From: Nostoc linckia FACHB-104
GTDB lineage: Bacteria; Cyanobacteriota; Cyanobacteriia; Cyanobacteriales; Nostocaceae
NCBI RefSeq assembly: GCF_014696615.1
Contig: NZ_JACJQJ010000077.1
Span: 1 to 38,354, forward strand
Direction: 5' to 3'
DNA length: 38,354 nucleotides
Shown here: piece by piece, positions 5,454 to 37,867 of the stretch
How positions within the stretch are numbered: position 1 is the first letter of the stretch
How the letters are laid out: every line of letters starts with the position of its first letter
Notes under the pieces: model-generated
What the model was told of the DNA's origin: nothing
The model's database searches: none
Seen by the model: the letters and a program-made list of their open reading frames with translations, nothing else
Translations under genes and position numbers: made by a program

Positions 5454-5900
5454 ATGTCTACAATCCGAGAAGGAATGCCCGTGCTTGTCCGTCATGAAGG
5501 AGAATGGATAGGCACGTATACGCTAGTAGATAATGCGGGGAAAATTCTCGATCAGCATGAATCTCACCTCAGCTGCCAGTTTCCAGAAGATTCCACCTAT
5601 CCTTACTACCAAATTAATCGCTACAAATGGTCTAACGGCAAGCAAGAAGAACATCAATTTCCTGGCACATATAAAGATAAAACCCTGTTTTTTGATACTG
5701 AGCGAATTTTAGGCAAAGCCTGGGAAATAGATGATTCTACAGTGATTTTGTGGTTTGCTTATAAAACAGCACCAGACTTGAATTTATATGAAATGATTCA
5801 AATTAGCCCTGATAATAACTATCGTGCCCGTACCTGGCATTGGTTTAAAAATCATCAAATTTACCAACGCACTCTCATACAAGAAGAACGTTTACGGTAG
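5454..5900 (+). CDS. DUF3598-like (calycin-type) protein
   Basis: This 148-residue soluble protein is rich in aromatic and acidic residues and predicted to be beta-strand rich. The opening R-E-G-M-P-V-L-V-R-H-E-G-E-W-I-G-T-Y-T and later Y-P-Y-Y-Q-I-N-R-Y-K-W and A-R-T-W-H-W-F are the patterns I associate with cyanobacterial DUF3598 proteins, a lipocalin/calycin-like group of unknown function. No signal peptide is present. A strong AAGGAG site lies 7 nt before the ATG. The assignment rests on memory of the family, and no ligand or pathway can be named. Confidence 0.7.
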   Translation: MSTIREGMPVLVRHEGEWIGTYTLVDNAGKILDQHESHLSCQFPEDSTYPYYQINRYKWSNGKQEEHQFPGTYKDKTLFFDTERILGKAWEIDDSTVILWFAYKTAPDLNLYEMIQISPDNNYRARTWHWFKNHQIYQRTLIQEERLR

Positions 5901-9162: not shown

Positions 9163-10539
9163 ATGGCAAATTTCGGTTTAGATGAAGCTATAAAAGTTGC
9201 AAATGATGCAATATTTAACAAATTAAATAGAAATTTAACAGATGTAGAAATAATAATTATTAAAGGTGCATGGCAGCGGCAGGAATATGATGAAATTGCT
9301 GCCAAAAATCAGTATGCAACTACTTATATTAGTCAAGATGTCGCACCAAAACTCTGGAAGAATTTAAGTGATGCTTTAGGAGAGAAAGTCAAGAAAAGTA
9401 ATTTTAAAGAAGCCCTAAAACGCCAATGGGAAAAGTTTATCTCTCCTGATTTTAATACATACTCTGTTAGCCAGCAGGATGAAGCCGAAGAAAATCTGCC
9501 AATTAAAAATCAGACAGCAAGTAAATCAGCATCTATAAATGAATTAAGTAATGATATTTATGTTAAGCGAACTGAAATCGAAACAGTTTGTTATGAAACT
9601 CTCCTACAACCTGGTGCGCTAATTAGAATTAAAGCTCCGAGTTTGATGGGTAAAACTTCATTGATAATACAGGTAATAAAACATTTAGATCAACAAGGAT
9701 ATCGCAATGTTATTTTAAGTTTTGAATTAGCAGATAGAAATACTCATTTTACCCAACTGAATAAATTTTTGCGTTGGTTTTGTAGCAATATTAGTCGCGA
9801 ACTAGGATTACCCAGCGAGTTAGATGAATATTGGGATGAAGAGGGTATGGGAGCAAAAGTAAGTTGTACGACTTACTTTGAAGAATATTTATTAGCTGCT
9901 ATCGATAGTCCTTTAGTTTTATGCTTAGATAATGTAGATTTACTCTTTCCATATCCTGAAATTTACGAAGATTTTTTTGGATTGTTACGTTCTTGGTATG
10001 AAAAGGCCAGAAGTAGACAAATTTGGAAGAAGTTACGATTAGTACTCATACATTCTACTGATGTTTATATTCGGCTAAATATTAATCAATCTCCTTTTAA
10101 TGTGGGATTACCTCTAGAATTGGCAGAGTTTACCCGTGAACAAGTCCAAGATTTAGCCCAACAACATCAACTTAATATTAATGTAGATGCAAATATTATA
10201 GATTCTCTGATGAATTTAGTAGGAGGACATCCTTATTTATTAGAAATGGCATTTTCTTACTTAAAAAATCATCCTAATGTTAACCTACAACAGATATTAA
10301 CAGAAGGAACTACAGAAACTGGTATTTATGCACATCATTTGCGAGAACATTGGTTGAATTTACAACAACATCATGAATTAGCAAGTGCTTTTAAAAAAGT
10401 TGTGGATTCTCAAATTTCTGTGTTATTAGAGCCGACTTTAGCTTATCAATTGCAAAGTATGGGGTTGGTAAAACTTGCTGGTAATTTGGTAGAGATTCGC
10501 TGCAGTTTATATCGGCAGTATTTTCGCATAAGGTTGTAG
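9163..10539 (+). CDS. vMAP-N/HTH-AAA-like (AAA_35) STAND-type ATPase
   Basis: This 458-residue cytosolic protein has two parts. Residues 5-85 resemble the helix-turn-helix-like N-terminal domain of vWA-MoxR-associated proteins (L-N-R-N-L-T-D-V-E, G-A-W-Q-R-Q-E-Y-D-E-I-A). Residues about 130-458 form an AAA-like (AAA_35) domain with Walker A A-P-S-L-M-G-K-T-S (158-166) and Walker B L-V-L-C-L-D-N-V-D (251-259). The segment G-G-H-P-Y-L-L-E is the conserved sensor region of this family. Such proteins are signal-transducing NTPases that usually carry a third effector domain. None is seen here, so it may work in trans. A linker at 95-128 is polar and low in complexity. No nearby effector gene is obvious. 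Confidence 0.85.
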   Translation: MANFGLDEAIKVANDAIFNKLNRNLTDVEIIIIKGAWQRQEYDEIAAKNQYATTYISQDVAPKLWKNLSDALGEKVKKSNFKEALKRQWEKFISPDFNTYSVSQQDEAEENLPIKNQTASKSASINELSNDIYVKRTEIETVCYETLLQPGALIRIKAPSLMGKTSLIIQVIKHLDQQGYRNVILSFELADRNTHFTQLNKFLRWFCSNISRELGLPSELDEYWDEEGMGAKVSCTTYFEEYLLAAIDSPLVLCLDNVDLLFPYPEIYEDFFGLLRSWYEKARSRQIWKKLRLVLIHSTDVYIRLNINQSPFNVGLPLELAEFTREQVQDLAQQHQLNINVDANIIDSLMNLVGGHPYLLEMAFSYLKNHPNVNLQQILTEGTTETGIYAHHLREHWLNLQQHHELASAFKKVVDSQISVLLEPTLAYQLQSMGLVKLAGNLVEIRCSLYRQYFRIRL

Positions 10540-10683
10540 TAGAAACGATAATAATTCGGAGTTAATAAATTTACTTAAAATCTTCAATTGGGTAGATTGG
10601 TTTTCATGAATTAAATCAATATTTCTGCAGCTAATTCGGATATAATACATATCAAATAATGTTGGCGATACATCAATATATTC

Positions 10684-10712
10684 TAGAGGGCACAGCAGTG
10701 CCATGCCCCTAC
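10684..10712 (+). repeat. dispersed palindrome (GGGCACAGCAGTGCCATGCCCCTAC type)
   Basis: An imperfect palindrome centred on GCAGTGC with GGGCA/TGCCC flanks and a terminal CTAC. It belongs to the same family as the ends of the 6683-6745 element. Confidence 0.55.
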
Positions 10713-10796
10713 AATCTGTCGCATTCTCTTTTCAAATTGCCTACAGTTACAAGATAGATGAAAATTTACGAAAACCTAGCTACAGATAGTTTTTTA

Positions 10797-10819
10797 GTAA
10801 AGGCAATGCTTTGCCTTTA
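10797..10819 (-). repeat. perfect 10-bp hairpin beyond the lipoprotein gene
   Basis: GTAAAGGCAA (10797-10806) pairs perfectly with TTGCCTTTAC (10810-10819) around a 3-nt loop. On the minus strand it lies 45 nt after the lipoprotein stop. It lacks a U-run, so termination is possible but not intrinsic by the usual rule. Confidence 0.5.
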
Positions 10820-10863
10820 CCTTACCAAAGTATTTGTATAAAAGCCAAATTTCAATAGAAACC

Positions 10864-11889
10864 CTAAAATGAACCCCATTTGACTGTTTGTTGGTCTTTT
10901 CTGGCAGTTTTGACTACTCGATAGCCTCTGGAAGTTGCCCAATCTTGAGCAGCTTTTTCTAATGTTGGTTCACCACAATTGAGATAGGCAAGAGCTAAAT
11001 TTTTATTGCCGTTTTCTTTCAAAACTTTAACTAAAGTTTCTGTGGTATCTTTACCACCAATACTAATAAAAGAATATAGGGCATAAGATAACGTCCGGGG
11101 GTCTTTTGATGCTAAATCTTTGAGCAAAACATCTTTCGTCATTTCCCAATTGTTGCGTAATTCTTCTCCTTTACTTTTAGCTATTAATAAATGCACTTTA
11201 TCTGCATCTGATACTGGTTGCCAGTTGAGTTTTTCTAAAGCTACACCAACCATTGGGCTAGATGCCCAATCAGTTAAATTTTTGGTTAATGGTTCAATCG
11301 CTTTGGGATCGCCAATATCTGCCAAAACACTAGCTGCATTCGTTCTCGTCCTCGCGTCGGGTTCTTTCAGTGCTGCTAGCATTGGTTCTAGCGCAGGTTT
11401 ACCCATCGCACCCATAGCAATTACAGATGCAGGATCATCCTTCTTAAAGCCAGGTAGCACCTGATCAACTATCTTGGGATTTGTGGCTGCAATATCCTTG
11501 AGTGCAGTTTTAGCGGCGTTGGCGATGCGGGAGTTGGGATGGTTGACATTAGCGACTAAAGGCTTAACAGCACGGGTATCTTTGAGTTTTCCCAGTGCGA
11601 TCGCAGCTGCTGCATGAGTTTTAATTTCTGCAGAAGATGCAGAGGCTTTCACGGGAGTATTTAGCACAGCAATTAAAGGTTCGACAGCTAGCTTATCTCC
11701 TAGATTTCCTAATGCTTCCGCTGCTTGATCTGTGCCAAAAGTCGGAGGCTTTTGGATGTAAGCGGCTATCAGTTCTTTGACATTTTTTTCATCTGCTAGA
11801 CGCTGAACTTTAGAATCTTTTACTGCGCCCAGATTGCAAGCGCTGAGAGTGAGGAAAAGTAGACAAGTTGCAATTATATGGTGTTTCAT
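10864..11889 (-). CDS. HEAT-repeat lipoprotein
   Basis: This 341-residue protein has a type II signal peptide: M-K-H-H then a hydrophobic stretch and lipobox L-S-A-C with Cys18. I therefore chose the ATG at 11889 over an upstream start at 11964, which would overlap the previous gene by 41 nt and hide the signal. The mature part is a series of HEAT-like repeats (A-x-x-A-L-G-x-L-x-D-x-x-A-V-x-P-L) through about residue 230. A less regular helical region follows, ending in K-W-G-S-F. HEAT lipoproteins are protein-binding scaffolds at a membrane face, and the partner here is unknown. It lies 34 nt downstream of the haem-oxygenase-fold gene on the same strand, so the two probably form one transcription unit. 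Confidence 0.87.
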   Translation of the reverse strand: MKHHIIATCLLFLTLSACNLGAVKDSKVQRLADEKNVKELIAAYIQKPPTFGTDQAAEALGNLGDKLAVEPLIAVLNTPVKASASSAEIKTHAAAAIALGKLKDTRAVKPLVANVNHPNSRIANAAKTALKDIAATNPKIVDQVLPGFKKDDPASVIAMGAMGKPALEPMLAALKEPDARTRTNAASVLADIGDPKAIEPLTKNLTDWASSPMVGVALEKLNWQPVSDADKVHLLIAKSKGEELRNNWEMTKDVLLKDLASKDPRTLSYALYSFISIGGKDTTETLVKVLKENGNKNLALAYLNCGEPTLEKAAQDWATSRGYRVVKTARKDQQTVKWGSF

Positions 11890-11923: not shown

Positions 11924-12733
11924 TTAAGCTTTTTTTGGCGAAACCTGCTTGGGAGAAAAGACAATGCAGAAGTCTAAAGATTTGACACCTGATACATCAA
12001 AATCTTTGGTTTCTTGGAGATGAGAAACTATCGTCTCATGCTCATAGTTGAGGTTTTCATAGGCATAAGCTAATAATTCTTCTGTCCATTCTTTAAATAA
12101 AGCAAATACCAAATTGACTTTTTTAATTGCCTCATTGCGTGTTTTTTCATCCATTTCGATATTTGCCAGCATTTTATGGTCGCTTGTCATCGCATGACCA
12201 GATTCTTTACTAAAATGGAACTCTCCACAGTAACGCAAATTAATCCCCATTTCTTGTTCAATTTGGACTGCGAGGTTTCCCATTAACTTAAATAATACGT
12301 TCCCAGTTTCTTCAATAGCTTCAATAATTGCTAGGCGGACAATACTGGATGAACTATAAATTATAGACGCTAGTTTGTGAGATAACATCCGGTTTACGGC
12401 AGTGCGATCGCTGTAGAAAAACTCTAAATATTCTGTAGGTGAAATTTTTTCGCGATCAAAGCCCAATTTGATATAGTCTTCTAAATACCAAGGCCAGTGA
12501 TGATCGTCTTCATAGGAATGTTCGTTTACCATAGCCTGATATGGGTCTGAGGTTGGTTCTTGACGCATAACATAGCGATTCAGGTCACCAAAGCTCATAA
12601 TAAAAGGAGCCATACAGGGATAAAATTCTAAACGCTGACGTGCTGATAAACTCTCATCCCGTAAAAACTCAAAAAATGGCAATTGGCTGTACTGTTTCTT
12701 GAGTTTGAAAATGTGAATTAATATAGATTTCAT
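11924..12733 (-). CDS. haem-oxygenase-fold, CADD/HDO-like candidate diiron protein
   Basis: This 269-residue, mostly helical soluble protein has the TENA/PqqC/haem-oxygenase pattern. Helix 1 reads L-P-F-F-E-F-L-R-D-E-S-L-S. A possible six-ligand metal site can be lined up: Glu71 and His78 (E-x6-H, the spacing in the chlamydial enzyme CADD), a Glu in E-A-I-E-E-T-G (138/141/142), and H-F-S-K-E-S-G-H giving His173, Glu177 and His180. The last matches the H-x3-D/E-x2-H motif of haem-oxygenase-like diiron oxygenases (UndA, SznF, CADD). If active it would use O2 to oxidise a substrate. The 518-nt gap behind the LanM gene carries a copy of the lanA upstream element, which hints at joint expression. 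The HEAT lipoprotein follows after 34 nt. Fold call fairly secure; reaction unknown. Confidence 0.72.
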   Translation of the reverse strand: MKSILIHIFKLKKQYSQLPFFEFLRDESLSARQRLEFYPCMAPFIMSFGDLNRYVMRQEPTSDPYQAMVNEHSYEDDHHWPWYLEDYIKLGFDREKISPTEYLEFFYSDRTAVNRMLSHKLASIIYSSSSIVRLAIIEAIEETGNVLFKLMGNLAVQIEQEMGINLRYCGEFHFSKESGHAMTSDHKMLANIEMDEKTRNEAIKKVNLVFALFKEWTEELLAYAYENLNYEHETIVSHLQETKDFDVSGVKSLDFCIVFSPKQVSPKKA

Positions 12734-13251
12734 GTTTAGTTTTCCCAGATTACAAGTAATAGTAATTCGTAGTTCGTAGTTAATTTGGATTTAGCAGGAA
12801 TTATTGGTACACTTTGATTTTTGGGAAAAGGCAGAAGAAAAAATTTTTCTCCTGCCTAATTCTGTAGTTAGGAAGCATGTTTTAACGCTAAGTACCGGAG
12901 CAATACTACTCGGTTAAGAGCTTTGAACTCAAAATTGGTTTTGAGTTAAAGGTTAAAGGTTCTTGATTTCCCTTTTACCATTCCCCTTTTTTCCCTTCAC
13001 CGACAAGTATTGAGTACCTGTCAATTCAGATAACACTATATGCATCTTGGGGCTAAAAAAGAATTGTGGTGATTAATATCATCACAATCACTTATTTCAG
13101 CTTATTTGTATTTTCTCTAATAAACTCATTCCATAGTTGAGTCTAAATCAGGGATATTTTCAGCATATTGAAATTGCTAGATTCAGTGTGATTGAGTGAA
13201 ACTCAGTTAAATTCAGGTAAATTCAGGTGTAGGATGCTTTACTAACGCATC
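12734..13251. other. 518-nt gap with regulatory-looking repeats between LanM and the CADD-like gene
   Basis: No ORF is supported on either strand. The gap contains an 8-bp hairpin ACTCAAAA/TTTTGAGT (12927-12934 with 12939-12946), the 19-mer at 12939-12957 that recurs at 17149-17167, and the motif plus decamer array described at 13133-13231. It also holds the repeat that overlaps the LanM stop. Confidence 0.6.
13133..13231 (-). promoter_or_regulatory. copy B of the lanA upstream element (19-bp motif plus decamer array)
   Basis: The motif ATAGTTGAGTCTAAATCAG (13133-13151) matches 17044-17062 at 18 of 19 positions. About 40 nt further on come four 10-bp units at 13192-13231 (TTGAGTGAAA, CTCAGTTAAA, TTCAGGTAAA, TTCAGGTGTA). 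The matching array lies upstream of lanA. On the minus strand this copy faces the CADD-like gene, 400 nt away. It is probably a regulator binding region. The 10-bp period is one helical turn. Confidence 0.55.
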
Positions 13252-13255
13252 CTAC
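13229..13255 (-). repeat. hairpin GTAGGATGC/GCATCCTAC overlapping the LanM stop codon
   Basis: GTAGGATGC (13229-13237) and GCATCCTAC (13247-13255) form a perfect 9-bp stem with a 9-nt loop. The LanM TAG stop lies in the arm nearest the gene. The sequence resembles the repeat at 8640-8670. No U-tract follows, so it is more likely a dispersed repeat than an intrinsic terminator. Confidence 0.6.
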
Positions 13256-16200
13256 TTTGGCGGTTCTAAAACTAGAACTGAAGGAACTTGATCAGGCGCG
13301 GCTAAACGTAGCAATCCATAACCAATACCTGCCAATCCAGTCATTAAACCGGGAGTTTCCACACCGGAGGGAACGCCACAAAGCCAACCATGTTGATTAA
13401 TACTTTCGAGAATAATTGCCGCAAAGCGATTAACTTGAGGTTGCCATTGGGAATGATTGAGAGTGAGGCTGGCTTGCAAAAGCAATTCTAAATTACCTAA
13501 ATCACCGTGACAGAGTGAGTGATTAGTACCAAATCCCTCAGCTATAGTTGTTTTCAAAGCTGTGTTGATTTCCGATCTCATTTTTGCATCATCAAGATAA
13601 GGCAGACTGCGTAGACGCGCTAAACCAATTCCTGTAGCACCGTGACACCAAGCACACATACAACTAAGCTGATTGTCTTTGTCTGCTAAGACTGTATTAC
13701 TAAAATTGCGTAAATCTAACCAATTTCCTACTTTTGGTAAAAAGAGACTGTTCTCGTATTCCAAAGCAGCTTTAGCTGCATTACTAAAACGCTGTTCTCC
13801 TGTGATTGATGCCAACTCCAATAGCGCCAAAGCTATCCCAGCTACACCATGAGAAAAACCTGTGAGTGGTTTTTCTGCAAACATCTGATTTTTCCATCTC
13901 CAACCAATGCCACGAGGCATTTTTTCGGCACAAGCAAGTAACCGATTGCCACATTGGATGGCGACAGCCAGGATATTATCGCTTGGTTGACAGCGATATA
14001 GTCCTAACAAGCTGACAATACATCCAGCTGCACCGCTAATAATATCAAATTCCTCATCTTGCTCAATGAGATTGGGGAGATGGTTAACTATCTTTTGGGC
14101 TTCTGTTAACAGTTCTGGTTGATCCCACAACACACCCAAATGTGTGAAAGTATAAATTATGCCTCCCCAGCCACCAAAAGCACCAATAGATTTGATATCT
14201 GAGCGAAACTTTTCCGCTAGGTATCGCATTGTTCTCAGCGCTGCTTGGGCGAGATTTGTATAACGTTGCTCGCCTGTGACAGCACCTAGATGAGCTAAGA
14301 ATAAAATTATTCCTGGTAAACCATCGTATAAATCTAATCTTAAAGATACTAGCGACCATTGACGCTCGTCTTTGAATGTCAAACCAATCCAGGAAGCATC
14401 TTTTTCGCCACGTATGGCTAAAAAATCTAAGCGATCGCCAATTTCACAAGCCGCCGCTAAGATTTGATCGCGGTTAACTGTTGTCTGGGGTTCTGCGATC
14501 GCGTAGCTGGGAAAAGAAGTGTCAGCTAATCCTAGATGCACTGTTGCTAAAGAAGCGCGGATAAACCACTGCTGTTGTGCCATATCCCAGTCGCTGAATT
14601 TTTCTAAGCGACGGTACACCAGATCAATGCTGGTTTTTTCTAGAAAATCAGGGATACATTGCCCAGAACTACCCCAAATATGCTGCGAGTTGGGACGCGT
14701 TACAAATAGAGGAATATCACCCCGCAACAAGTCTTCTCGCTCTACAGGTAGCGCTTGCTTTAATGAAGGTTCATGCTGTGCCTGAAGCCAAAGTAAATCA
14801 AAATGGCGATCGCGTTCTAGAGCATCCCGCAAGCGATCGGGATGAAAGCTTTCATCTAACAACAGACTATAGTTGCGCGTGAGATTGAGGATAACTCTAA
14901 TTTCATCCTCAGCAAAAGCTGCGATCGGGCCTGATTTTGCTAGTAACTCTGCTCGATATTTAACGAGTAACTGATAAATATTGGTAAATCCAGTCAGAAT
15001 TTCTGCTGTATAGTCGAGTAAATTGACATTAGCGCCATTCAAAGTTGGTAAATTTCCATCTGCTGGCATCTCTAGCCGCTTATGTGTTAGCCGCATCTCA
15101 TCAGTTCCCGTACCTTCCCAGTAAGGCAGCTGATGCGGCGTAAGTTGCCCTTGTTTTGAGCCTAAACCACTCAAATCAATGCCTTCAGCCTGATTGTTAC
15201 CCCAAACACGCTGCGGTAGTAAACCTATACCTAAAACTGAGTCAGCCATTTTATCGCTAACCACAACATTGGCTTGGGAGTCATTGGTTTTACCTATTTT
15301 GGGATGGAACAAAGCTTCTAAGTCAACCAAAATTGGATGTTCGCCAGCAGCAATTAAATTTTCTGAATGAAAATCAGTCGCTTGCAAGGCATAAAGTAAA
15401 GCTAGGTAGCCTCCTTGACGCTGATAAAAACGCTGAATTTCTGCTTCTGTTTGACAGGTTTGGGGTTTGACAAACTCAACCCAACCATAATCACCACCAT
15501 CTATAAGTTTTAAAATACCAAAAGGTGGATGATTGCCACGGGCATTCAGCCACATGAGAAGTTCTTGAAAATGGAAATCTACTGCCAAGGATCTTGGCTT
15601 ATAGACTAATTGCAAGCCAGAACTAAATTTAGCAATTAAAACAGAACGCCCACTTTTATGACTATCCCCAGCACCACCCTGTAACTCTATTAGTAACCCA
15701 GGTTTATCTTCAGGACTAAATTTAGCTTGAATTTTCTGCAAATCTGCACATAAATGTTGTAGAAACTCTAAACTAAATGTCAGCCAATGATTGATACAAA
15801 TAGTAATTTGGCGAGCCAATACCGGATATTCTTGCAAAATAGCAAGGGCAACATCTCGCTGGCGTAAACGCTCTCCAAAACTGCGAAATCGCTCTTGAGG
15901 TGTATCACCTGTAAGTAATCCTTGCAGTCGAGCTACATTTAATTCTAAAACTAGGGTGCGGTTTAAAATTTGACGCAACTGTATAATCAAATTTGTCAAA
16001 AGTATGTCTGTAACTGTTTCCTGTTCAAAGGGTAGTTCTGAATACTGTTGACTCAGATTCTGAATACCTGCATCTAAATGATTTAAAGCTTGGCAGATTA
16101 GCGGTTCAATTAAATATATAAATGAATTAGTTTCTACATTTTGTGTTGCATCTGGCAGATGCAGGGGCTCAAACTCAGAAGTAGTAGAAAATGCCTCGGC

Positions 16201-16497
16201 AATTTGTTTTAACCAAGTTGGAGTTTCAGGAAAACGTTGCTGTACTGCTTCTATGGGTTCACCCAGCAGTGATAAAAATTGCTCTTCATCTATCCCATCC
16301 ATTGCCAAACGTTCGGCAAAGAAAGATTTTTTCGTAAAAGGATCTTGATTGCGCCAGCGTTGCATCCGATTTTGAGCTAGATGCAGATTTACCTGCTGAT
16401 TTTGAATTTGATTTTCTCCAACAAAGAGCGATGCAATCCTTTCCTTTAAATCCATCGCACCATACCAAGCATCTGCTTGAAAGTATTCTTGATTCAC
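13252..16497 (-). CDS. lanM: class II lanthipeptide synthetase LanM
   Basis: This bifunctional cytosolic enzyme dehydrates Ser/Thr in a precursor and closes (methyl)lanthionine rings. With the GTG start at 16497, backed by AGGAG 9 nt upstream, it has 1081 residues, normal for LanM. The kinase-like dehydratase domain (DUF4135) spans about 160-640: Lys300 in Y-K-P-R, D-F-H-S-E-N (Asp375, His377, Asn380) and D-L-E (392-394). The LanC cyclase domain covers about 725-1070: D-G-L-P-G, F-S-H-G-V-A-G (His883), W-C-H-G (Cys951) and L-C-H-G-D (Cys996, His997). The two Cys and His997 are the zinc ligands, and all are intact. It lies 221 nt downstream of a mersacidin-type precursor, its likely substrate. 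No LanT transporter/protease is in the window. Confidence 0.95.
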   Translation of the reverse strand: MNQEYFQADAWYGAMDLKERIASLFVGENQIQNQQVNLHLAQNRMQRWRNQDPFTKKSFFAERLAMDGIDEEQFLSLLGEPIEAVQQRFPETPTWLKQIAEAFSTTSEFEPLHLPDATQNVETNSFIYLIEPLICQALNHLDAGIQNLSQQYSELPFEQETVTDILLTNLIIQLRQILNRTLVLELNVARLQGLLTGDTPQERFRSFGERLRQRDVALAILQEYPVLARQITICINHWLTFSLEFLQHLCADLQKIQAKFSPEDKPGLLIELQGGAGDSHKSGRSVLIAKFSSGLQLVYKPRSLAVDFHFQELLMWLNARGNHPPFGILKLIDGGDYGWVEFVKPQTCQTEAEIQRFYQRQGGYLALLYALQATDFHSENLIAAGEHPILVDLEALFHPKIGKTNDSQANVVVSDKMADSVLGIGLLPQRVWGNNQAEGIDLSGLGSKQGQLTPHQLPYWEGTGTDEMRLTHKRLEMPADGNLPTLNGANVNLLDYTAEILTGFTNIYQLLVKYRAELLAKSGPIAAFAEDEIRVILNLTRNYSLLLDESFHPDRLRDALERDRHFDLLWLQAQHEPSLKQALPVEREDLLRGDIPLFVTRPNSQHIWGSSGQCIPDFLEKTSIDLVYRRLEKFSDWDMAQQQWFIRASLATVHLGLADTSFPSYAIAEPQTTVNRDQILAAACEIGDRLDFLAIRGEKDASWIGLTFKDERQWSLVSLRLDLYDGLPGIILFLAHLGAVTGEQRYTNLAQAALRTMRYLAEKFRSDIKSIGAFGGWGGIIYTFTHLGVLWDQPELLTEAQKIVNHLPNLIEQDEEFDIISGAAGCIVSLLGLYRCQPSDNILAVAIQCGNRLLACAEKMPRGIGWRWKNQMFAEKPLTGFSHGVAGIALALLELASITGEQRFSNAAKAALEYENSLFLPKVGNWLDLRNFSNTVLADKDNQLSCMCAWCHGATGIGLARLRSLPYLDDAKMRSEINTALKTTIAEGFGTNHSLCHGDLGNLELLLQASLTLNHSQWQPQVNRFAAIILESINQHGWLCGVPSGVETPGLMTGLAGIGYGLLRLAAPDQVPSVLVLEPPK

Positions 16498-16555
16498 TTT
16501 AACTAACTCCTGCAAAGTGAGAGAGAAAGTTTTAAATATCTACAAATAAAAGGAG

Positions 16556-16580
16556 AAGAGAAGTTATTATTACTTCTCTT
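16556..16580 (-). terminator. hairpin between lanA and lanM, possible attenuator
   Basis: AAGAGAAGT (16556-16564) pairs perfectly with ACTTCTCTT (16572-16580) around a 7-nt loop. On the minus strand the stem is followed by CTCCTTTTATTT. It sits 138 nt after the lanA stop and 58 nt before the lanM start. It could lower lanM expression relative to lanA, as is common for precursor/synthetase pairs. Confidence 0.5.
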
Positions 16581-16718
16581 AACTCCCTGTGGTATATGCA
16601 CCGAATCCTGTAAATATTAATAATTTTATTTTTAAAAGATTCGGTTAAAGTTTATATTCCTAGGAAACAACTTTTAACTATTCCACTATTCAGATAATTA
16701 TCTAGCTAGCATTAACTA

Positions 16719-16955
16719 TTACTTTGGAGCACTACATGGGTTACATTTCGAGCAGTTACCACCAGTACCGCATCCTGTGCCGCCACCGCCACCGCCACCG
16801 TCACCGCCTCTACCGCCTGCAATAGTTTCTAGAACTTCATCTGATAACTCAGCAATACCTGCTGGATTTTCTGGTAGATTAGAGCGTTGTTCTTCACTCA
16901 GGCTTTCGCGATATTCTCTATCTTTCCAAGCGCGAATGATATCTTGTTGTGACAT
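16719..16955 (-). CDS. lanA: class II lanthipeptide precursor, mersacidin/lichenicidin-type leader
   Basis: The 78-residue peptide starts at the ATG at 16955, preceded by AAGGAG at about 9 nt; the frame is open further upstream but without a better start. The leader (1-48) has I-I-R-A-W-K-D-x-E-Y-R-x-S-L-S, L-P-E-N-P-A-G and E-L-S-D-E-V-L-E-T-I-A-G-G, the mersacidin/lichenicidin pattern, and ends at the double-glycine site Gly47-Gly48. The predicted core (49-78) opens with R-G-G-D and seven consecutive glycines. It then carries Thr60, Cys62, Thr64, Cys68, Ser69, Cys71, Cys74 and Ser75. LanM lies directly downstream. Processing needs a C39-type protease that must be encoded elsewhere. Up to three or four rings are possible; connectivity is unknown. 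Confidence 0.9.
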   Translation of the reverse strand: MSQQDIIRAWKDREYRESLSEEQRSNLPENPAGIAELSDEVLETIAGGRGGDGGGGGGGTGCGTGGNCSKCNPCSAPK

Positions 16956-17043
16956 AATTTTTCTCCTTGACAAAAGTTGTAATTGTTGATGAAGCAAGTT
17001 TGTTTTGCTTGCTGATTCATAGTATGTTCGATAATTTTGTTGT

Positions 17044-17132
17044 ATAGTTGAGTCGAAATCAGTTCTGTTTTCAGGCAATTAAATTTAGTGAGTTCAGGTG
17101 AATTCAGGTAAACTCAGTTAAATTCAGTTAAA
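17044..17132 (-). promoter_or_regulatory. copy A of the lanA upstream element (19-bp motif plus decamer array)
   Basis: ATAGTTGAGTCGAAATCAG (17044-17062) is followed by four tandem 10-bp units at 17093-17132: TTCAGGTGAA, TTCAGGTAAA, CTCAGTTAAA, TTCAGTTAAA. The element lies 89 nt upstream of lanA on the minus strand. A possible -10 hexamer TATACA lies at 17041-17046, with no clear -35, so an activator bound to the decamers is plausible. A second copy is at 13133-13231. Confidence 0.55.
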
Positions 17133-26449: not shown

Positions 26450-26995
26450 ATGAACAATTCTCGTCTGCTCAAAATTAGTAAGTTTCTTAGCAAATATCTG
26501 CGGCACCAACCCGAAGATATTGGCATAAAACTTGCCCCTGGTGGCTGGGTTGCTATTAGCGAGCTACTGACTGCTTGCGCTCAAAACAAGTTTCCCATTA
26601 CCCGTCAGGAATTACAGCTAGTAGTAGAAAATAACGATAAACAACGCTTTTCTTTTGACTCTACAGGTACTTTAATCCGTGCTAACCAAGGGCACAGTGT
26701 AGAAGTTGATTTGCAGTTAGAAGCTATTGTGCCGCCAGATGTACTTTATCACGGTACAAGCAAAAAATCTGTAGAGTTAATTTTAGAAGCTGGACTTAGT
26801 AAAATGTCTCGACATCATGTGCATTTATCAACAGATATTGCTACAGCCAAGAATGTGGGTGCAAGGCATGGAAAGCCTGTAGTGTTTGCTGTTGATGCTG
26901 CTGCAATGCATCAAGCTGGTTACAGCTTCTACTGTTCTGATAATGGTGTTTGGTTAGTAGATAATGTTCCATCTGAATATTTACGTCGTATTTAG
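26450..26995 (+). CDS. kptA: RNA 2'-phosphotransferase (Tpt1/KptA family)
   Basis: This 181-residue cytosolic enzyme of the Tpt1/KptA family transfers a 2'-phosphate from RNA to NAD+, giving ADP-ribose 1'',2''-cyclic phosphate. In fungi and plants this finishes tRNA splicing; the bacterial role is unclear. The N-terminal winged-helix lobe begins S-K-F-L-S-K-Y-L-R-H-Q-P with Arg18-His19. Other family residues are Arg77 in L-I-R-A-N-Q-G-H-S, Y-H-G-T (100-103), H-V-H-L-S and Arg139 in G-A-R-H-G-K-P. These give the R-H-R-R core expected for activity. Length is typical. No ribosome binding site is evident. It is a single gene in an AT-rich surrounding. Confidence 0.92.
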   Translation: MNNSRLLKISKFLSKYLRHQPEDIGIKLAPGGWVAISELLTACAQNKFPITRQELQLVVENNDKQRFSFDSTGTLIRANQGHSVEVDLQLEAIVPPDVLYHGTSKKSVELILEAGLSKMSRHHVHLSTDIATAKNVGARHGKPVVFAVDAAAMHQAGYSFYCSDNGVWLVDNVPSEYLRRI

Positions 26996-30876: not shown

Positions 30877-31521
30877 TTAACTGGCAGATTTTAAAGCATC
30901 TAAAGCGAGATTTAATTGCAAGACATTGACCCCAGGCTCACCAAAGATTCCCAGAAACCGACCATCAGTATTTTGATTAATTAAAGTTTCTAACTCTTGG
31001 GATGATATTCCTCGCGCTTTAGCGACACGGGCAATTTGTGCTTTAGCGGCTTCTGGGGTAATGTGGGGGTCAAGGCTGGAACCAGAGGTGTAAACTAAAT
31101 CTGCGGTAGGTTGGACATTCGCTTTTTTCAAACGGTTTAAATCACCTTCAACCCGTTTGCTGGGATCGGGATCGTCTTTACCTTTGATGCGTTCTAGTAA
31201 GGCGGAATTGCTGGGAGCGAGGTTACTAGCACCAGAAACTCCTGTTTGTAAGACTTTAGCATCATCTTTTTTGGGGTTGGCGGTGCTGTAGCTGGTGGTG
31301 CTGGGGCGAGAGTTAAAATAGCGATCGCTACTAAAGGGTTGTCCAATTAAGGCAGAACCGACAACTTGACCTTGGTTATCTTTGATTAAACTACCATTGG
31401 CTTGATAGGGAAATACAATCTGTCCCACAGCAATCATCATAAATGGATAGATAATTGCGCCAATAATCCAAAGTACAAAGGTAGAACGAATTGCTCTGCT
31501 GGCTTCTCTGGTAAAACTCAT
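30877..31521 (-). CDS. kdpC: potassium-transporting ATPase subunit KdpC
   Basis: This 214-residue single-span membrane subunit of the Kdp high-affinity K+ pump is needed for assembly with KdpB. An N-terminal helix (F-V-L-W-I-I-G-A-I-I-Y-P-F) leads to a periplasmic domain with G-S-A-L-I-G-Q-P-F, F-N-S-R-P-S and, near the end, S-G-S-S-L-D-P-H-I-T-P-E-A-A, all KdpC hallmarks. The ATG overlaps the stop of the kdpF-like gene by one base (TAATG), indicating translational coupling. No kdpD or kdpE follows it. Confidence 0.96.
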   Translation of the reverse strand: MSFTREASRAIRSTFVLWIIGAIIYPFMMIAVGQIVFPYQANGSLIKDNQGQVVGSALIGQPFSSDRYFNSRPSTTSYSTANPKKDDAKVLQTGVSGASNLAPSNSALLERIKGKDDPDPSKRVEGDLNRLKKANVQPTADLVYTSGSSLDPHITPEAAKAQIARVAKARGISSQELETLINQNTDGRFLGIFGEPGVNVLQLNLALDALKSAS

Positions 31522-31775
31522 TAGAATTTCTCCGGTACAAACATCACAAAAAATAAATAGATGGAAAGACTTAGGGTTACTAGTCCTAACAATCCTAAAG
31601 CCCAGGCTTGTGTGCGAGAAAATTCCTCACCTGTGGCTGCATACACAACAGGCGCAACCACAAGGTTGAAGCACATTCCCAGAAATATGTATAAAGGCAG
31701 TTTTTGTTTGCGCCAGTCTGAGAATATTTCGGTAATGTCTGCAATTATTTGGGTAGAGTTTTGGAGGGATTTCAT
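31521..31775 (-). CDS. kdpF: KdpF-like subunit with N-terminal extension (KdpG position)
   Basis: This 84-residue protein lies between kdpB and kdpC. Its C-terminal third (L-G-L-L-G-L-V-T-L-S-L-S-I-Y-L-F-F-V-M-F) looks like the single helix of KdpF, the small stabilising subunit. An extra hydrophobic segment (L-P-L-Y-I-F-L-G-M-C-F-N-L-V-V-A-P-V) and a charged N-terminus precede it. Standalone KdpF is about 29 residues. Anabaena kdp operons are reported to carry an extra gene, kdpG, at this position, and this is probably its counterpart. It overlaps kdpC by 1 nt and lies 19 nt after kdpB. Confidence 0.8.
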   Translation of the reverse strand: MKSLQNSTQIIADITEIFSDWRKQKLPLYIFLGMCFNLVVAPVVYAATGEEFSRTQAWALGLLGLVTLSLSIYLFFVMFVPEKF

Positions 31776-31794
31776 GGCAATTGGTAATTTGTAA

Positions 31795-33948
31795 TTAAGA
31801 CAAAGGTAAAATTACATCGATGAGCTTAATGGCGATGAAAGGTGCAATAATTCCCCCCACACCATATATGAAAATGTTGCGTTTCAATAGTTGATCGGCT
31901 GTGAGAGGGCGAAACTTCACGCCTTTGAGTGCTAGGGGAATGAGTACAGGGATAATTAAAGCGTTATAAATCAACGCTGAGATAATTGCCGATTGAGCAC
32001 TTTTTAACGCCATAATATTCAATGCGCCAATCCCAGCCGCCGCAAAGATAGTGGGGATAATGGCGAAGTATTTAGCAATATCGTTGGCGATAGAGAAAGT
32101 AGTTAACGCCCCACGGGTAATCAGCAACTGTTTACCAATAGTCACCAAATCAATTAACTTGGTGGGGTCAGAATCTAAGTCCACCATGTTTGCAGCTTCT
32201 TTGGCGGCTTGAGTTCCAGAGTTCATGGCTAACCCGACGTTAGCTTGCGCTAATGCAGGCGCATCGTTAGTACCATCTCCTGTCATTGCCACCAGCTTAC
32301 CTTGAGACTGTTCAGAGCGAATCACGCTAATCTTGTCTTCTGGTGTAGCTTCAGCGATGAAGTCATCTACTCCGGCTTCTTGAGCAATTACACTAGCAGT
32401 AATGCGGTTATCACCAGTCAGCATGATAGTTTTCACACCCATACGCCGCAGTTGGTCAAATCTTTCCCGTAAGCCAGGTTTGACGATATCTTTGAGATAG
32501 ATTACGCCAAAAATTTGGTCATCTTGGCAGACTGCTAAGGGTGTACCACCTAAGCGAGAAACTCGCTCGTAGGCTGCATCGACATCATCAGGAATGCGAC
32601 CACCACGAGAACGGACAAAGCCTTTAATTGCATCGACTGCACCTTTACGGACTTCCTTCCCGTTGGGTAAATTAGTACCACTCATCCGGGTTTTGGCAGA
32701 AAATTCTACACCTTCGGCTTGTTTAGAGTCGAAATCAACCTTGACTCCCAAACTGTCGGCTAATTTAATAATTGATCTACCTTCGGGTGTTTCATCAAAT
32801 ACACTAGCAGCTAAAGCAACTCTGGCTACATCTTCAAGAGTGTAACTATTTACAGGGATAAACTCATCAGCCATGCGGTTACCCAAGGTAATTGTCCCAG
32901 TTTTATCTAGCACTAAGGTGTTAATGTCACCGCAAGCTTCTACTGCGCGCCCAGAGGTGGCAATTACATTAAATTGGGCAACTCTATCCATCCCAGCAAT
33001 CCCGATCGCACTCAGTAAACCACCGATGGTTGTGGGTATTAAAGCTACCAACAGCGAAATTAAGATAGCAACGCTAGCACCTGCACGTAAACTGTTGCTG
33101 GCTTCCGCCCCAAACACAGTACTAATAAAGTTAGCAATGTAGTTAACAAAAGGCGGCATGGTTGCCACGACAATTAAGAAGACTTGAGTAAGTACGGCTA
33201 ATAATACTGTCAGAGCAATTTCGTTCGGAGTTTTTGTCCTTTCTGCCCCTTCCACGAGAGAAATCATCCGGTCAATAAAGCCCTGACCGGGATCGGCGGT
33301 GATGCGAATTGTTAATTCATCTGAAAGTAAACGTGTACCTCCAGTTACGGAACTAGCAATATCTGTACCCGGTTGCTTGAGTACGGGCGCAGATTCCCCC
33401 GTAATTGCCGACTCATCCACCGAACCGATGCCTTGAAGGACTTCGCCATCGGCAGGAATCATGTCATTAGCAATGACTTTCACTAAATCATTGCGGCGTA
33501 ATTCTGTAGAATTAACTTGTTGAATCGTACCATCGGGAAGAACTTTCCGAGCGATCGTATCAGAACGTGTTGACCTTAAAGAATCTGCTTGGGCTTTACC
33601 TCTTCCTTCCGCAACAGCTTCCGCAAAGTTAGCAAACACCACTGTAAAAAACAGAATTAAGGTAATTAACCCGTTTAACAAGCGTTGCTGATTGACATCT
33701 ACCTGTAAAGTACCGAATAAACTGGGATTCAGAGTCACTAAGAAAGTAACAATTGTCCCCACCCACACCACAAACATCACTGGGTTCTTGACAGCAATTC
33801 GGGGGTGCAGCTTGACAAATGATTCTTTAATTGCTCTTTGATAAAGCCCCCGCATATCTGCTTTAGGCGTGTGTCTGCGCGAGTCACGTGTTCCCTGGGG
33901 AACACGAGGCGGGCGCGGTGAAGGGGATGAGTCGATATTAGTTGTCAT
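31795..33948 (-). CDS. kdpB: potassium-transporting P-type ATPase subunit KdpB
   Basis: This 717-residue catalytic subunit couples ATP hydrolysis to K+ uptake through KdpA. P-type ATPase motifs are complete: T-G-E-S (183-186), the phosphorylated Asp348 in D-K-T-G-T, and M-L-T-G-D-N and G-D-G-T-N-D-A-P-A in the C-terminal half. The N-terminal 45 residues are longer than in E. coli KdpB and rich in Pro, Arg and Ser. The gene is 411 nt downstream of kdpA, an unusually long gap filled with a 21-bp minisatellite. Confidence 0.97.
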
Positions 33949-34057
33949 AAATTATGGGAACTGAGGAGATAAGGAAGACAACAGGAGTAGAAAAGAAACT
34001 GGTAAAACAAACTGTGTGATAAATTTATGAGGTCTTTTGCTGCCTTGAGGTTGACAG

Positions 34058-34330
34058 TTGAGCCTTAGAACCTGAACGTCGAGCCTTTGAGGCTGACAGT
34101 TGAGCCTTTGAGCCTGAACATTGAGCCTTAGAACCTGAACGTTGAGCCTTTGAGGCTGACAGTTGAGCCTTAGAACCTGAACATTGAGCCTTTGAGCCTG
34201 AACATTGAGCCTTGAAACCTGAAAGTTGCACCTTTGAGCCTGAAAGTTGCACCTTTGAGCCTGAAAGTTGCACCTTTGAGCTTGAACATTGCGGCTTTGA
34301 TGTCGGAAGTTGCACCTTTGAGCCTGAAAG
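34058..34330 (-). repeat. 21-bp minisatellite, 13 units, between kdpA and kdpB
   Basis: Thirteen full 21-bp units (consensus TTGAGCCTTTGAGCCTGAACA on the plus strand) run without gaps, with a partial degenerate unit at each end. Two sub-types alternate: TTGAGCC... and TTGCACC.... Because 21 is a multiple of 3, several frames on both strands stay open; for example, the minus strand reads as S-K-A-Q-C-S-G heptads. I therefore do not call a gene. It sits inside the kdp transcript, so it will be transcribed. Confidence 0.92.
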
Positions 34331-34359
34331 TTACACCTTTAAAACCAATGCCCAATGCC

Positions 34360-36102
34360 CTATCCCCCATGCCCCAAATAAAAAGCTTCACCGATGGGGC
34401 CGAATGCTAGAACTGGGAAGAATGTCAGTGCGCCGAGGATTAAAATTACGCCTGCGGTTACGCCTGTAAATAGTCCGGTGTCAGTTCGTAATGTGCCGAC
34501 GTTGAAAGGAACTTGCTTTTTGCGGGACATACTATCTGCTAGCAACAGCAAACCGATAATGGGGATGTAGCGTCCAGCAAGGAGACTGAAGCAAGTACTC
34601 AGGTTCCACCACAAAGCAGTTGCGGTAGTTTTTGCACCAGCTGCAATAGCCAACGGTGAGGGTTGAGAATCTCCTAAGCCTTCAAATCCCGAACCATTAT
34701 TAGCCGCTGCGGAGGCGTATTCGTAAATGACTTGGGCAAAACCATGAAAACCGGGGTTGCTGATTCCTGCTAGTTGGTCAGGAAATGCTAAAGCAATGCC
34801 GGCTGGTATCATAATGGCGATCGGGTGAACTAAGAGAATGAGAAAACTCGCCAGTACCACCTCACGCTTTTCGATTTTGCGTCCCAGAAATTCTGGTGTG
34901 CGTCCTACCATTAAACCTGTAGCAAATACTGCCAAAATTAAATAAGCAAATAAGTAAGCTGTGCCTGTACCTTGTCCACCCCAAATGATTTGCAGAAACA
35001 TATTTGACAGGGTGACAAAACCACCGTTGGGCATAAAGGAGTCATGCATACTGTTAACAGCACCAGTCATTGTCCCTGTTGTCACTGTGGCAAACAGCGC
35101 CGACTGTGCCCAACCAAACCGCACTTCTTTACCTTCTAGATTCGGTTGCGTACTTCCCAGCAGTGCATTTACTGCGGGATTACCGTTGTATTCTCCAATA
35201 GCATTAATAATTACAAATGCTATGAAGATTACAGCCACCATCCCGTAGACTAACTGAGCTTGTTTGGTGTTGTTAGCAAACAAGCCATAGGTATAAATCA
35301 GAGATGTGGGTATAGAAATCATCGCCACAATCTCAATTAGGTTAGAAAACCCGTTGGGATTTTCAAAGGGATGTGCTGAGTTAATAGCAAAAAAGCCGCC
35401 GCCGTTTTCTCCTAATTGTTTGATGATTTCAAAATGAGCCACCGGGCCGCGTGCGATCGCCTGACTAATGTTAGGGTCTTCTAAGGTGGGTAATACAACT
35501 GCCCCTGCTAAGGTTTCGGGAACACCCGCCGCCATCAAAGCAATACCGCCGACAATACAAATAGGTAGTAAAATCCGCGTAATTGAGCGAATTAAATCTA
35601 CATAGAAATTGCCCAAAGGTCTACCAGTCAACCCCCGAATAAAGGCAATTCCTACCGCCAACCCTGTGGCGGCTGAGGTGAACATATGATATCCCAGCCC
35701 CCACATTTGACTGGCATAGCTAAGATAAGTTTCACCAGAATAATGCTGCTGGTTGGTATTGGTAATAAAGGATATGGTTGTGTGTAATGCTGTATCCCAA
35801 GTTGGCGCACCTATCTTAGTAGGATTGAAGGGCAACCATCCTTGACTCATAATAATGAAGAATATCAGCGACCCCATCACCACATTGCTGTACAGAATAG
35901 CTCTTGTATACTGCCATCCTGTCATATCTTCTTTAGTTGCAACACCAACCAAAGAATAAAGTATTCGTTCAATTGGGTTTAAAATTGAGTCGAGAAAAGT
36001 GCGCTGTTCTTGATAGACACGCGCTATATATCGACCAAAAAATGGAGTAATTGCTACCACAATTAGTAGCGTTAATGCTATTTGAATCCATCCTTGTAGC
36101 AT
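34360..36102 (-). CDS. kdpA: potassium-transporting ATPase subunit KdpA
   Basis: This 580-residue polytopic inner-membrane subunit forms the K+ channel part of the Kdp pump. Family segments are present in order: an N-terminal helix ([16 protein letters not shown]), [17 protein letters not shown] in the first selectivity loop, and [18 protein letters not shown] in the second. The third is M-P-N-G-G-F, and the last [12 protein letters not shown]. Length is normal. It is the first gene of the kdp operon, and its promoter must lie in the 661-nt gap shared with the divergent histidine kinase. Confidence 0.97.
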
Positions 36103-36763: not shown

Positions 36764-37867
36764 ATGATTTTATTTCCAGCTAAATTACTCACTAAGAATT
36801 TAAACTTGAGCAGATTGACAGTTATATCAAGTCTGTTTGCTGTTGTCATGCTGATGGAGTTTGAAACACCCACTGAATATGTGTTTGGATATCTTTATAC
36901 AGGCCCAATATTATTGACAAACTCATGGTTTGGGAGGATTGCAACCTTTCAGGCAACATTGATTGCTGTGTGCTTAACGATTTTAAATCTTTTCTTGCCA
37001 GGGGGTGAAGTTGTGAAAGTATCCACAATTGCCAGTCGTGCGATCGCTTCAATGGCTTTGGTTGTGACTGGTATTTTAAGCGATCGCCTGCGTCGTTCCC
37101 AAGATGCGATCGCCCTCACCCATGCCAAGCTAGAATCGCAAGAGGAATTAGTCAAACTCCGAGAAGATTTCGCCTCAACGCTTACCCATGATTTAAAAAC
37201 ACCATTGCTAGGTGCAATTGAAACTATCAAAGCCTTTCAACAAGAAAAATTTGGCCCAGTATTACCAACCCAGCAACAAGTCTTAGCAACAATGGCGCGC
37301 AGCCACAAAACTTCCCTACAACTTTTAGAAACTTTATTAGATATCTATCGCAACGATACTGAAGGCTTAAAGCTGGACTTAGCACCTGTAGATTTAACCA
37401 ACTTAGCAGAAGAAGTGGCTGCTAGTTTAATTGAATTAGCTGCCAATCGTCGCGTTCATCTTTCGGTGAGTTATGGTGATTCTGATTGGCGAAGTGCATT
37501 ATGGGTTCAAGGTGATGCACTGCAATTACAAAGAGTTTTGAATAATCTTTTAGTGAATGCAATTAATCATTCCCGGCGGGGTGCAAGGGTGGAAGTATTC
37601 TTAGAACCCCAAGCCTCTTACCAAGTAGTAAAAATTTTGGATACAGGTGCAGGTATTGCGCCAGAAGAGTTTTCTCATTTATTTGAACGATTTTATCAAG
37701 GACATAGCGATCGCCAAGCCAAAGGTTCAGGATTGGGGCTTTACCTATCTCGGCAAATTATTGAAGCTCACGGAGGTATAATTTGGGCAGAGAACAGAGT
37801 ACCCACTGGTGCGATATTTGCTTTCAAACTGCCTGTTTACCCCTTTCAATCTGCTGTAACTGTGTGA
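36764..37867 (+). CDS. membrane sensor histidine kinase
   Basis: This 367-residue protein has three predicted N-terminal membrane helices (about 18-32, 45-78, 88-106) with little external loop, then a coiled segment and a transmitter. The HisKA box L-T-H-D-L-K-T-P places the phospho-acceptor at His142. The N box N-L-L-V-N-A-I-N-H-S, G1 D-T-G-A-G-I and G2 G-S-G-L-G-L-Y are intact. KdpD's USP-like cytoplasmic part is absent, so this is not a full KdpD, though it is divergent from kdpA. The response regulator gene begins 1 nt after its stop, but that gene is truncated, so the kinase may lack its cognate partner here. Confidence 0.92.
   Translation: MILFPAKLLTKNLNLSRLTVISSLFAVVMLMEFETPTEYVFGYLYTGPILLTNSWFGRIATFQATLIAVCLTILNLFLPGGEVVKVSTIASRAIASMALVVTGILSDRLRRSQDAIALTHAKLESQEELVKLREDFASTLTHDLKTPLLGAIETIKAFQQEKFGPVLPTQQQVLATMARSHKTSLQLLETLLDIYRNDTEGLKLDLAPVDLTNLAEEVAASLIELAANRRVHLSVSYGDSDWRSALWVQGDALQLQRVLNNLLVNAINHSRRGARVEVFLEPQASYQVVKILDTGAGIAPEEFSHLFERFYQGHSDRQAKGSGLGLYLSRQIIEAHGGIIWAENRVPTGAIFAFKLPVYPFQSAVTV

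Follow-up and report, generated by a model that had tools for sequence, protein, structure and literature searches.

A predicted haem-oxygenase-fold diiron enzyme of the AetD/SktA family encoded beside a class II lanthipeptide gene pair in Nostoc linckia FACHB-104

Background

To our knowledge, AetD, the nitrile synthase of aetokthonotoxin biosynthesis (PDB 8JI3, 8TWW), and SktA, a 5-bromoskatole synthase, are the only two characterised enzymes of their family of haem-oxygenase-like diiron oxygenases (HDOs), and the natural substrate of both is brominated tryptophan. Here we analyse a further HDO, P0001, which is encoded by a 38,354-nt stretch of Nostoc linckia FACHB-104 DNA ("the window", the entire contig NZ_JACJQJ010000077.1, or C157, of the 9.39-Mb genome) directly downstream of a lanA-lanM pair for a class II lanthipeptide. 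An earlier sequence-only reading of the window had regarded this protein as a candidate CADD-type diiron enzyme that might modify the peptide. Our analysis reveals that P0001 is a previously uncharacterised member of the AetD/SktA-like HDOs. From its sequence family, its predicted fold, the conservation of ligand and pocket residues, the distribution of its relatives in different loci and the discordant histories of the neighbouring genes, we consider it probable that P0001 is a substrate-triggered non-haem diiron oxygenase that would cleave a free tryptophan-like amino acid, with the lanthipeptide genes as mere neighbours.

In AetD the metal ligands are D76, H79, E140, H172, E176 and H179, and Fe1 is reported to be bound directly by the amine and the carboxylate of the substrate, on which two Phe residues of the pocket stack while a Tyr holds its carboxylate (PMC10654658; PMC11611611). 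The order of the Fe1 ligands is described as unlike that of other HDOs, which complicates the assignment of ligands from sequence alignments, and conversion of unbrominated L-Trp is given as about 35%, versus 100% for the brominated forms (PMC10654658). SktA is described with the same ligand set, and the two enzymes as differing at M139/A142 (AetD) versus T139/T142 (SktA) (2026 review PMC13108848). The N-oxygenase HDOs of the SznF/RohS type are reported to possess an extra Glu ligand on auxiliary helix 2 (PMC11611611).

Results and discussion

Fold and metal site

P0001 is encoded by an intact open reading frame (ORF) of 269 codons with an ATG start, and shows significant similarity to AetD (phmmer E 7e-39, 137 bits; profile E 1e-71; 32–34% identity). 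Its structural model is a haem-oxygenase-like helical bundle (residues 233–269 are of low confidence), which in a structure comparison superposes on AetD well above other HDOs; this bears out the fold that the sequence-only reading had assigned. According to the alignment with AetD, the predicted ligands are D76 and H79, both on the first core helix, together with E141, H173, E177 and H180, and the superposition and the alignment suggest that these six residues would cluster in the model. In an alignment of 63 family sequences (62 of the 64 relatives' ORFs were retained and two fragments from locus L080 left out), D76, H79, E141, H173 and H180 are invariant and E177 is present in 62 sequences. 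Of the six-ligand site proposed earlier, the Glu within 138–142 (E141), His173, Glu177 and His180 are thus retained; Glu71 and His78 are not confirmed, the alignment pointing to D76 and H79 in their stead.

The ligand spacings of the earlier proposal had been likened to those of CADD (PDB 1RCW) and other HDOs. CADD shares the haem-oxygenase-like bundle, possesses an H-x3-E-x2-H motif that is also present in P0001, and carries on core helix 1 a ligand pair with the spacing E-x6-H. The latter spacing does occur literally in P0001, but it is not conserved in the family, where position 71 is Glu in only 22 and position 78 is His in 55 of the 63 sequences. Despite the common bundle and motif, it is hardly credible that P0001 is a self-sacrificing p-aminobenzoate synthase of the CADD type. 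The extra Glu of the SznF/RohS type was not found in the family alignment either: the corresponding position of auxiliary helix 2 is the hydrophobic F48 in all 63 sequences.

Substrate pocket and proposed chemistry

P0001 shares with AetD not only the fold and the six ligands but also the F44/F48/Tyr pocket, F44 as well as F48 being present in 63/63 family sequences and Y168 in 61/63. Since Fe1 of AetD is bound by the amine and the carboxylate of its substrate, such a site fits a free amino acid, and by analogy with AetD P0001 would act on an aromatic amino acid in its free form, L-Trp being the likeliest. In the mechanism we propose, this amino acid, L-tryptophan or one resembling it, would bind at Fe1 through its alpha-amine and carboxylate, O2 would be activated as a peroxo-diferric species, and the side chain of the amino acid would be cleaved to give an indole product: a nitrile as in AetD, skatole plus cyanide as in SktA, or another compound. 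The lanthipeptide genes upstream would be a neighbour common to three close cyanobacteria rather than a dedicated partner.

At the positions that distinguish the two characterised enzymes P0001 has I140/T143. T143 corresponds to T142 of SktA as reported (PMC13108848), while I140 differs from both M139 of AetD and T139 of SktA. Because the pair matches neither enzyme, the outcome of the reaction cannot be read from the sequence; on the other hand, I140/T143 offers a clean contrast for asking why one enzyme yields a nitrile and another skatole plus cyanide. The position of AetD S214 and SktA F214 was not used, as phmmer pairs S214 with T217 of P0001, and by eye F214 of the likely SktA falls on F213.

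Family tree and linkage to halogenases

A maximum-likelihood tree of 93 rows, drawn from its midpoint and without AetD itself, divides the family in two at a branch with support of 100/100. Pieces shorter than 200 aa and the loci L001–L007 were left out of it (L001–L003 represent the window and a second copy from contig C60; L004, L005 and L007 are on contigs equal in length to those of L044, L055 and L087; L006 was omitted as well, for no such reason). The first group (42 rows) comprises the halogenase-linked enzymes, including a protein of Nostoc punctiforme NIES-2108 (L107/L113) that is likely SktA, as judged from T139, T142, F214 and a three-gene halogenase cluster; this organism and cluster we take to be the source of SktA. 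P0001 falls into the second group (clade II, 51 of the 93 rows), together with proteins from Cyanobacteriota, Pseudomonadota, Myxococcota, Actinomycetota and Planctomycetota. It is 38% identical to the likely SktA and 40% identical to the Nostoc carneum counterpart of the latter (L108), and the likely SktA is the more similar to AetD (180 bits versus 137 bits for P0001). P0001 is 98% identical to a protein of Nostoc carneum NIES-2107. The clusters of HDO, tryptophan halogenase and flavin-containing monooxygenase (FMO) lie at 2295–6288 of L113 and, in N. carneum NIES-2107, at 5815–9789 of L114.

Unlike AetD and SktA, P0001 has no evident halogenase partner. The tryptophan halogenase profile PF04820 has no match in the genome of the window, and a putative AetF-like protein (presumably so; Pfam calls it Pyr_redox_3) used as a query found there nothing better than 22 bits. 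With this lack of a tryptophan halogenase hit, it is unlikely that P0001 works on brominated substrates such as those of AetD and SktA. Three halogenase queries also had no match in 57 loci of HDO relatives (L033–L089), 41 of them with both 10-kb flanks and 16 with one flank shortened, which were collected by scanning for short peptide patterns taken from P0001, an approach that favours close relatives. The FMO beside the likely SktA does match one clade II locus (L036, 4.5e-49), at about 6 kb from the HDO, and this was not taken as linkage. We know of no characterised clade II enzyme in the open-access literature (most subscription papers lie outside it). As a member of a large separate clade in whose loci no halogenase was found, P0001 is a good candidate for the chemistry of this family on plain tryptophan.

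The second copy and the contexts of other relatives

The same genome encodes a paralogue about 80% identical to P0001 (contig C60; L092 3939–6948), whose gene appears to form an operon with those for a TIM-barrel protein resembling xylose isomerase and for a transporter of the major facilitator superfamily (MFS). The same trio is found in L035 and L036, and MFS genes also occur near clade II HDOs in one Cupriavidus and one Serratia locus. Such neighbours would fit an exported small molecule rather than a peptide.

The lanthipeptide genes and the duplicated lanA element

The lanA-lanM pair upstream of the HDO gene belongs to the class II lanthipeptide clusters of Nostocales, in which lanA and lanM are often followed by an ABC exporter with a C39 peptidase, and the leader of LanA is of the mersacidin/lichenicidin family. 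Next to the pair (window 13252–17044) we found no C39/ABC exporter, while one is present in the flanks of 16 of 30 LanM loci compared (LanM was matched in 114 of 217 genomes in all). On the minus strand the order is lanA, lanM, HDO and a gene for a HEAT-repeat protein (Table 1), which confirms that the HDO gene lies downstream of LanM on the same strand. The ORF of the HEAT-repeat protein is open from 11964, with the likely ATG at 11889, about 35 nt past the HDO stop; among the HDO loci compared, this protein adjoins the HDO only in the three genomes with linked lan genes, those of the window, L033 and L034.

Table 1. Features of the window around the HDO gene
Feature	Positions	Strand	Basis
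HEAT-repeat (PBS-lyase-like) protein	10864..11889	minus	lipoprotein-like N-terminus by eye
HDO (P0001), AetD/SktA-like haem-oxygenase-fold diiron enzyme, 269 aa	11924..12733	minus	alignment, model
Terminator-like hairpin, 13 pairs then a run of four T	12829..12857	minus	between promoter-like element and HDO start
lanA upstream element, second copy, in the lanM-HDO gap	13133..13226	minus	CTGA tandem repeats and CTGATTTnGACTCAACTAT
LanM, class II lanthipeptide synthetase, 1087 aa	13252..16515	minus	TIGR03897, 1058 bits
lanA precursor, 78 aa, mersacidin-type leader	16719..16955	minus	TIGR03898
lanA upstream element, first copy	17044..17127	minus	sequence comparison

The copy of the lanA control element that the sequence-only reading had noticed in the lanM-HDO gap proved real. 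In the whole 9.39-Mb genome, the 19-base core of the element, allowing 2 mismatches, and its CTGA tandem repeat, allowing 1, are each found at these two sites only, with 1 and 0 matches, respectively, for the reversed-pattern controls. The homology between the copies extends into the lanA 5' leader, and the gap copy is kept in L033 and L034. It ends 399 nt upstream of the HDO ATG, and is separated from it by a terminator-like hairpin (−18.4 kcal/mol, z −4.6, 0/200 shuffles as good). This hairpin is absent from the list returned by a consensus terminator scan; a similar palindrome was seen by eye in the gap of L034, which a MAFFT alignment of the three gaps misplaced, hence no covariation was counted from it. 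The roughly 300 nt from the element copy to the hairpin (12829–13133) contain no evident gene; this stretch could be what is left of a second lanA unit, or it could encode a small RNA or serve as an attenuating leader.

Is the HDO linked to the lanthipeptide?

The view that the HDO is a tailoring enzyme, which would oxidise LanA at some residue, either ahead of LanM or once LanM has acted, draws on the position of its gene next after lanA-lanM in the same orientation, on the copy of the lanA element in front of it that has no third site in the genome, and on the persistence of the whole arrangement in L033 and L034. Nonetheless, a site of the AetD type takes a free amino acid through its amine and carboxylate, and in all three genomes the core of LanA, which follows GG, lacks Trp, Tyr and Phe. 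The recurrent LanM linkage that the sequence-only reading had suggested looking for did not appear: LanM was found near the HDO in only two of the 57 related loci (L033 and L034, both from the same genus as the window) and in none of 29 further HDO hits with flanks of about 1.5 kb (L004–L032, at least three of which duplicate members of the 57). Conversely, among the 30 LanM loci, with flanks of about 1.5 kb, an HDO is encoded beside three, those of the window and its two relatives, whereas the LanMs that come next in similarity, 87% (L127) and 79% (L128) identical, have no HDO beside them. The three lan-linked HDOs form one clade in the tree, yet little sets them apart: 28 of 47 other clade II sequences are identical to P0001 at all 19 ligand and pocket positions checked, and by our filter only I4 and N165 differ consistently from those 47 proteins. 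The histories of the genes also disagree with one another. By Nei-Gojobori estimates of synonymous divergence (dS; without a significance test), the window is nearer to L034 for lanA (0.020, versus 0.146 for L033) and lanM (0.076 versus 0.118) but nearer to L033 for the HDO (0.051, versus 0.494 for L034), the HEAT-repeat gene giving 0.259 with L034 and 0.274 with L033; we read this discordance as recombination between lanM and the HDO gene. Altogether a tailoring role appears very improbable, and the sequence-only reading is supported in part.

Alternatively, the HDO could leave the peptide unmodified but share its regulation by way of the duplicated lanA promoter, a Trp-derived small molecule then being produced along with the lanthipeptide. 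The restriction of the element to two sites, the reach of the homology into the 5' leader and the persistence of the element in L034 despite divergence of the HDO to dS of about 0.5 all speak for this, and a weaker hairpin between lanA and lanM (z −2.6) indicates that a hairpin need not block expression, which is why the one before the HDO is not decisive against a link. However, that latter hairpin with its T run is strong, the distance to the HDO ATG is long, and the element may instead be left over from a second lanA unit (tandem lanA genes do occur in L128); we therefore regard co-regulation as rather unlikely. Still less likely is a further reading, in which a halogenase-independent Trp-cleaving diiron enzyme was captured by the lanthipeptide locus via duplication of the lanA promoter, one signal triggering both outputs; if true, there would be a two-part chemical output, a lanthipeptide plus an indole nitrile, skatole or cyanide. 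We give about even chances to a chance neighbourhood, with an HDO paralogue of unrelated role and with its own promoter beside a recombining lanA-lanM cassette. The discordant dS of lanM, HDO and HEAT genes over three genomes and the close HDO relatives in unrelated contexts, including the second copy in the same genome, agree with this, although it leaves the retention of the lanA element copy unexplained. This reading bears on the linkage alone and does not conflict with our preferred explanation, a diiron oxygenase acting on a free Trp-like amino acid.

Against this preferred explanation weigh the lack of a detectable tryptophan halogenase in the genome, the presence of I140/T143 in clade II in place of M139/A142 of AetD, owing to which the reaction may differ, and the duplicated lanA element, which is a real argument for a lanthipeptide link. 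Nevertheless, we find this link weak: the HDO gene lies next to the lanA-lanM pair, co-regulation is the most that may connect it with these genes, and its product appears not to be part of the lanthipeptide's manufacture. The dN/dS of the HDO (0.13–0.18) suggests purifying selection. The idea of a new lanthipeptide tailoring enzyme was plausible, but it is not supported and is corrected here.

Other observations

The genome contains three further LanM matches, on contigs C163, C155 and C72; the last, on a contig of 5.7 kb, spans only profile positions 2–528. Elsewhere in the window there are a Tpt1/KptA RNA 2'-phosphotransferase (26450–26995, PF01885) and a kdp potassium-transporter operon (30877–36102; KdpA, E1-E2 ATPase, KdpF, KdpC) with a histidine kinase at 36764–37867.

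No common pathway emerged from the contexts of other relatives with tandem HDO pairs, Patatin, a TonB receptor, an O-methyltransferase, a glycosyltransferase or an unnamed c60 protein. Tandem pairs of diverged AetD-like HDOs are found in Rivularia, Calothrix and their relatives (L075, L078, L084, L087 and L088, at about 10000–11740), in four of the five loci (not L078) near a gene of cluster c5, which is an O-methyltransferase in the two tested. In two Pseudomonadota metagenome-assembled genomes, a conserved protein of about 318 aa is encoded just upstream of clade II HDOs (L050 9024–9980, L047 4357–5316); it has no Pfam match, and by eye it contains a possible ferritin-like E-x2-H stretch.
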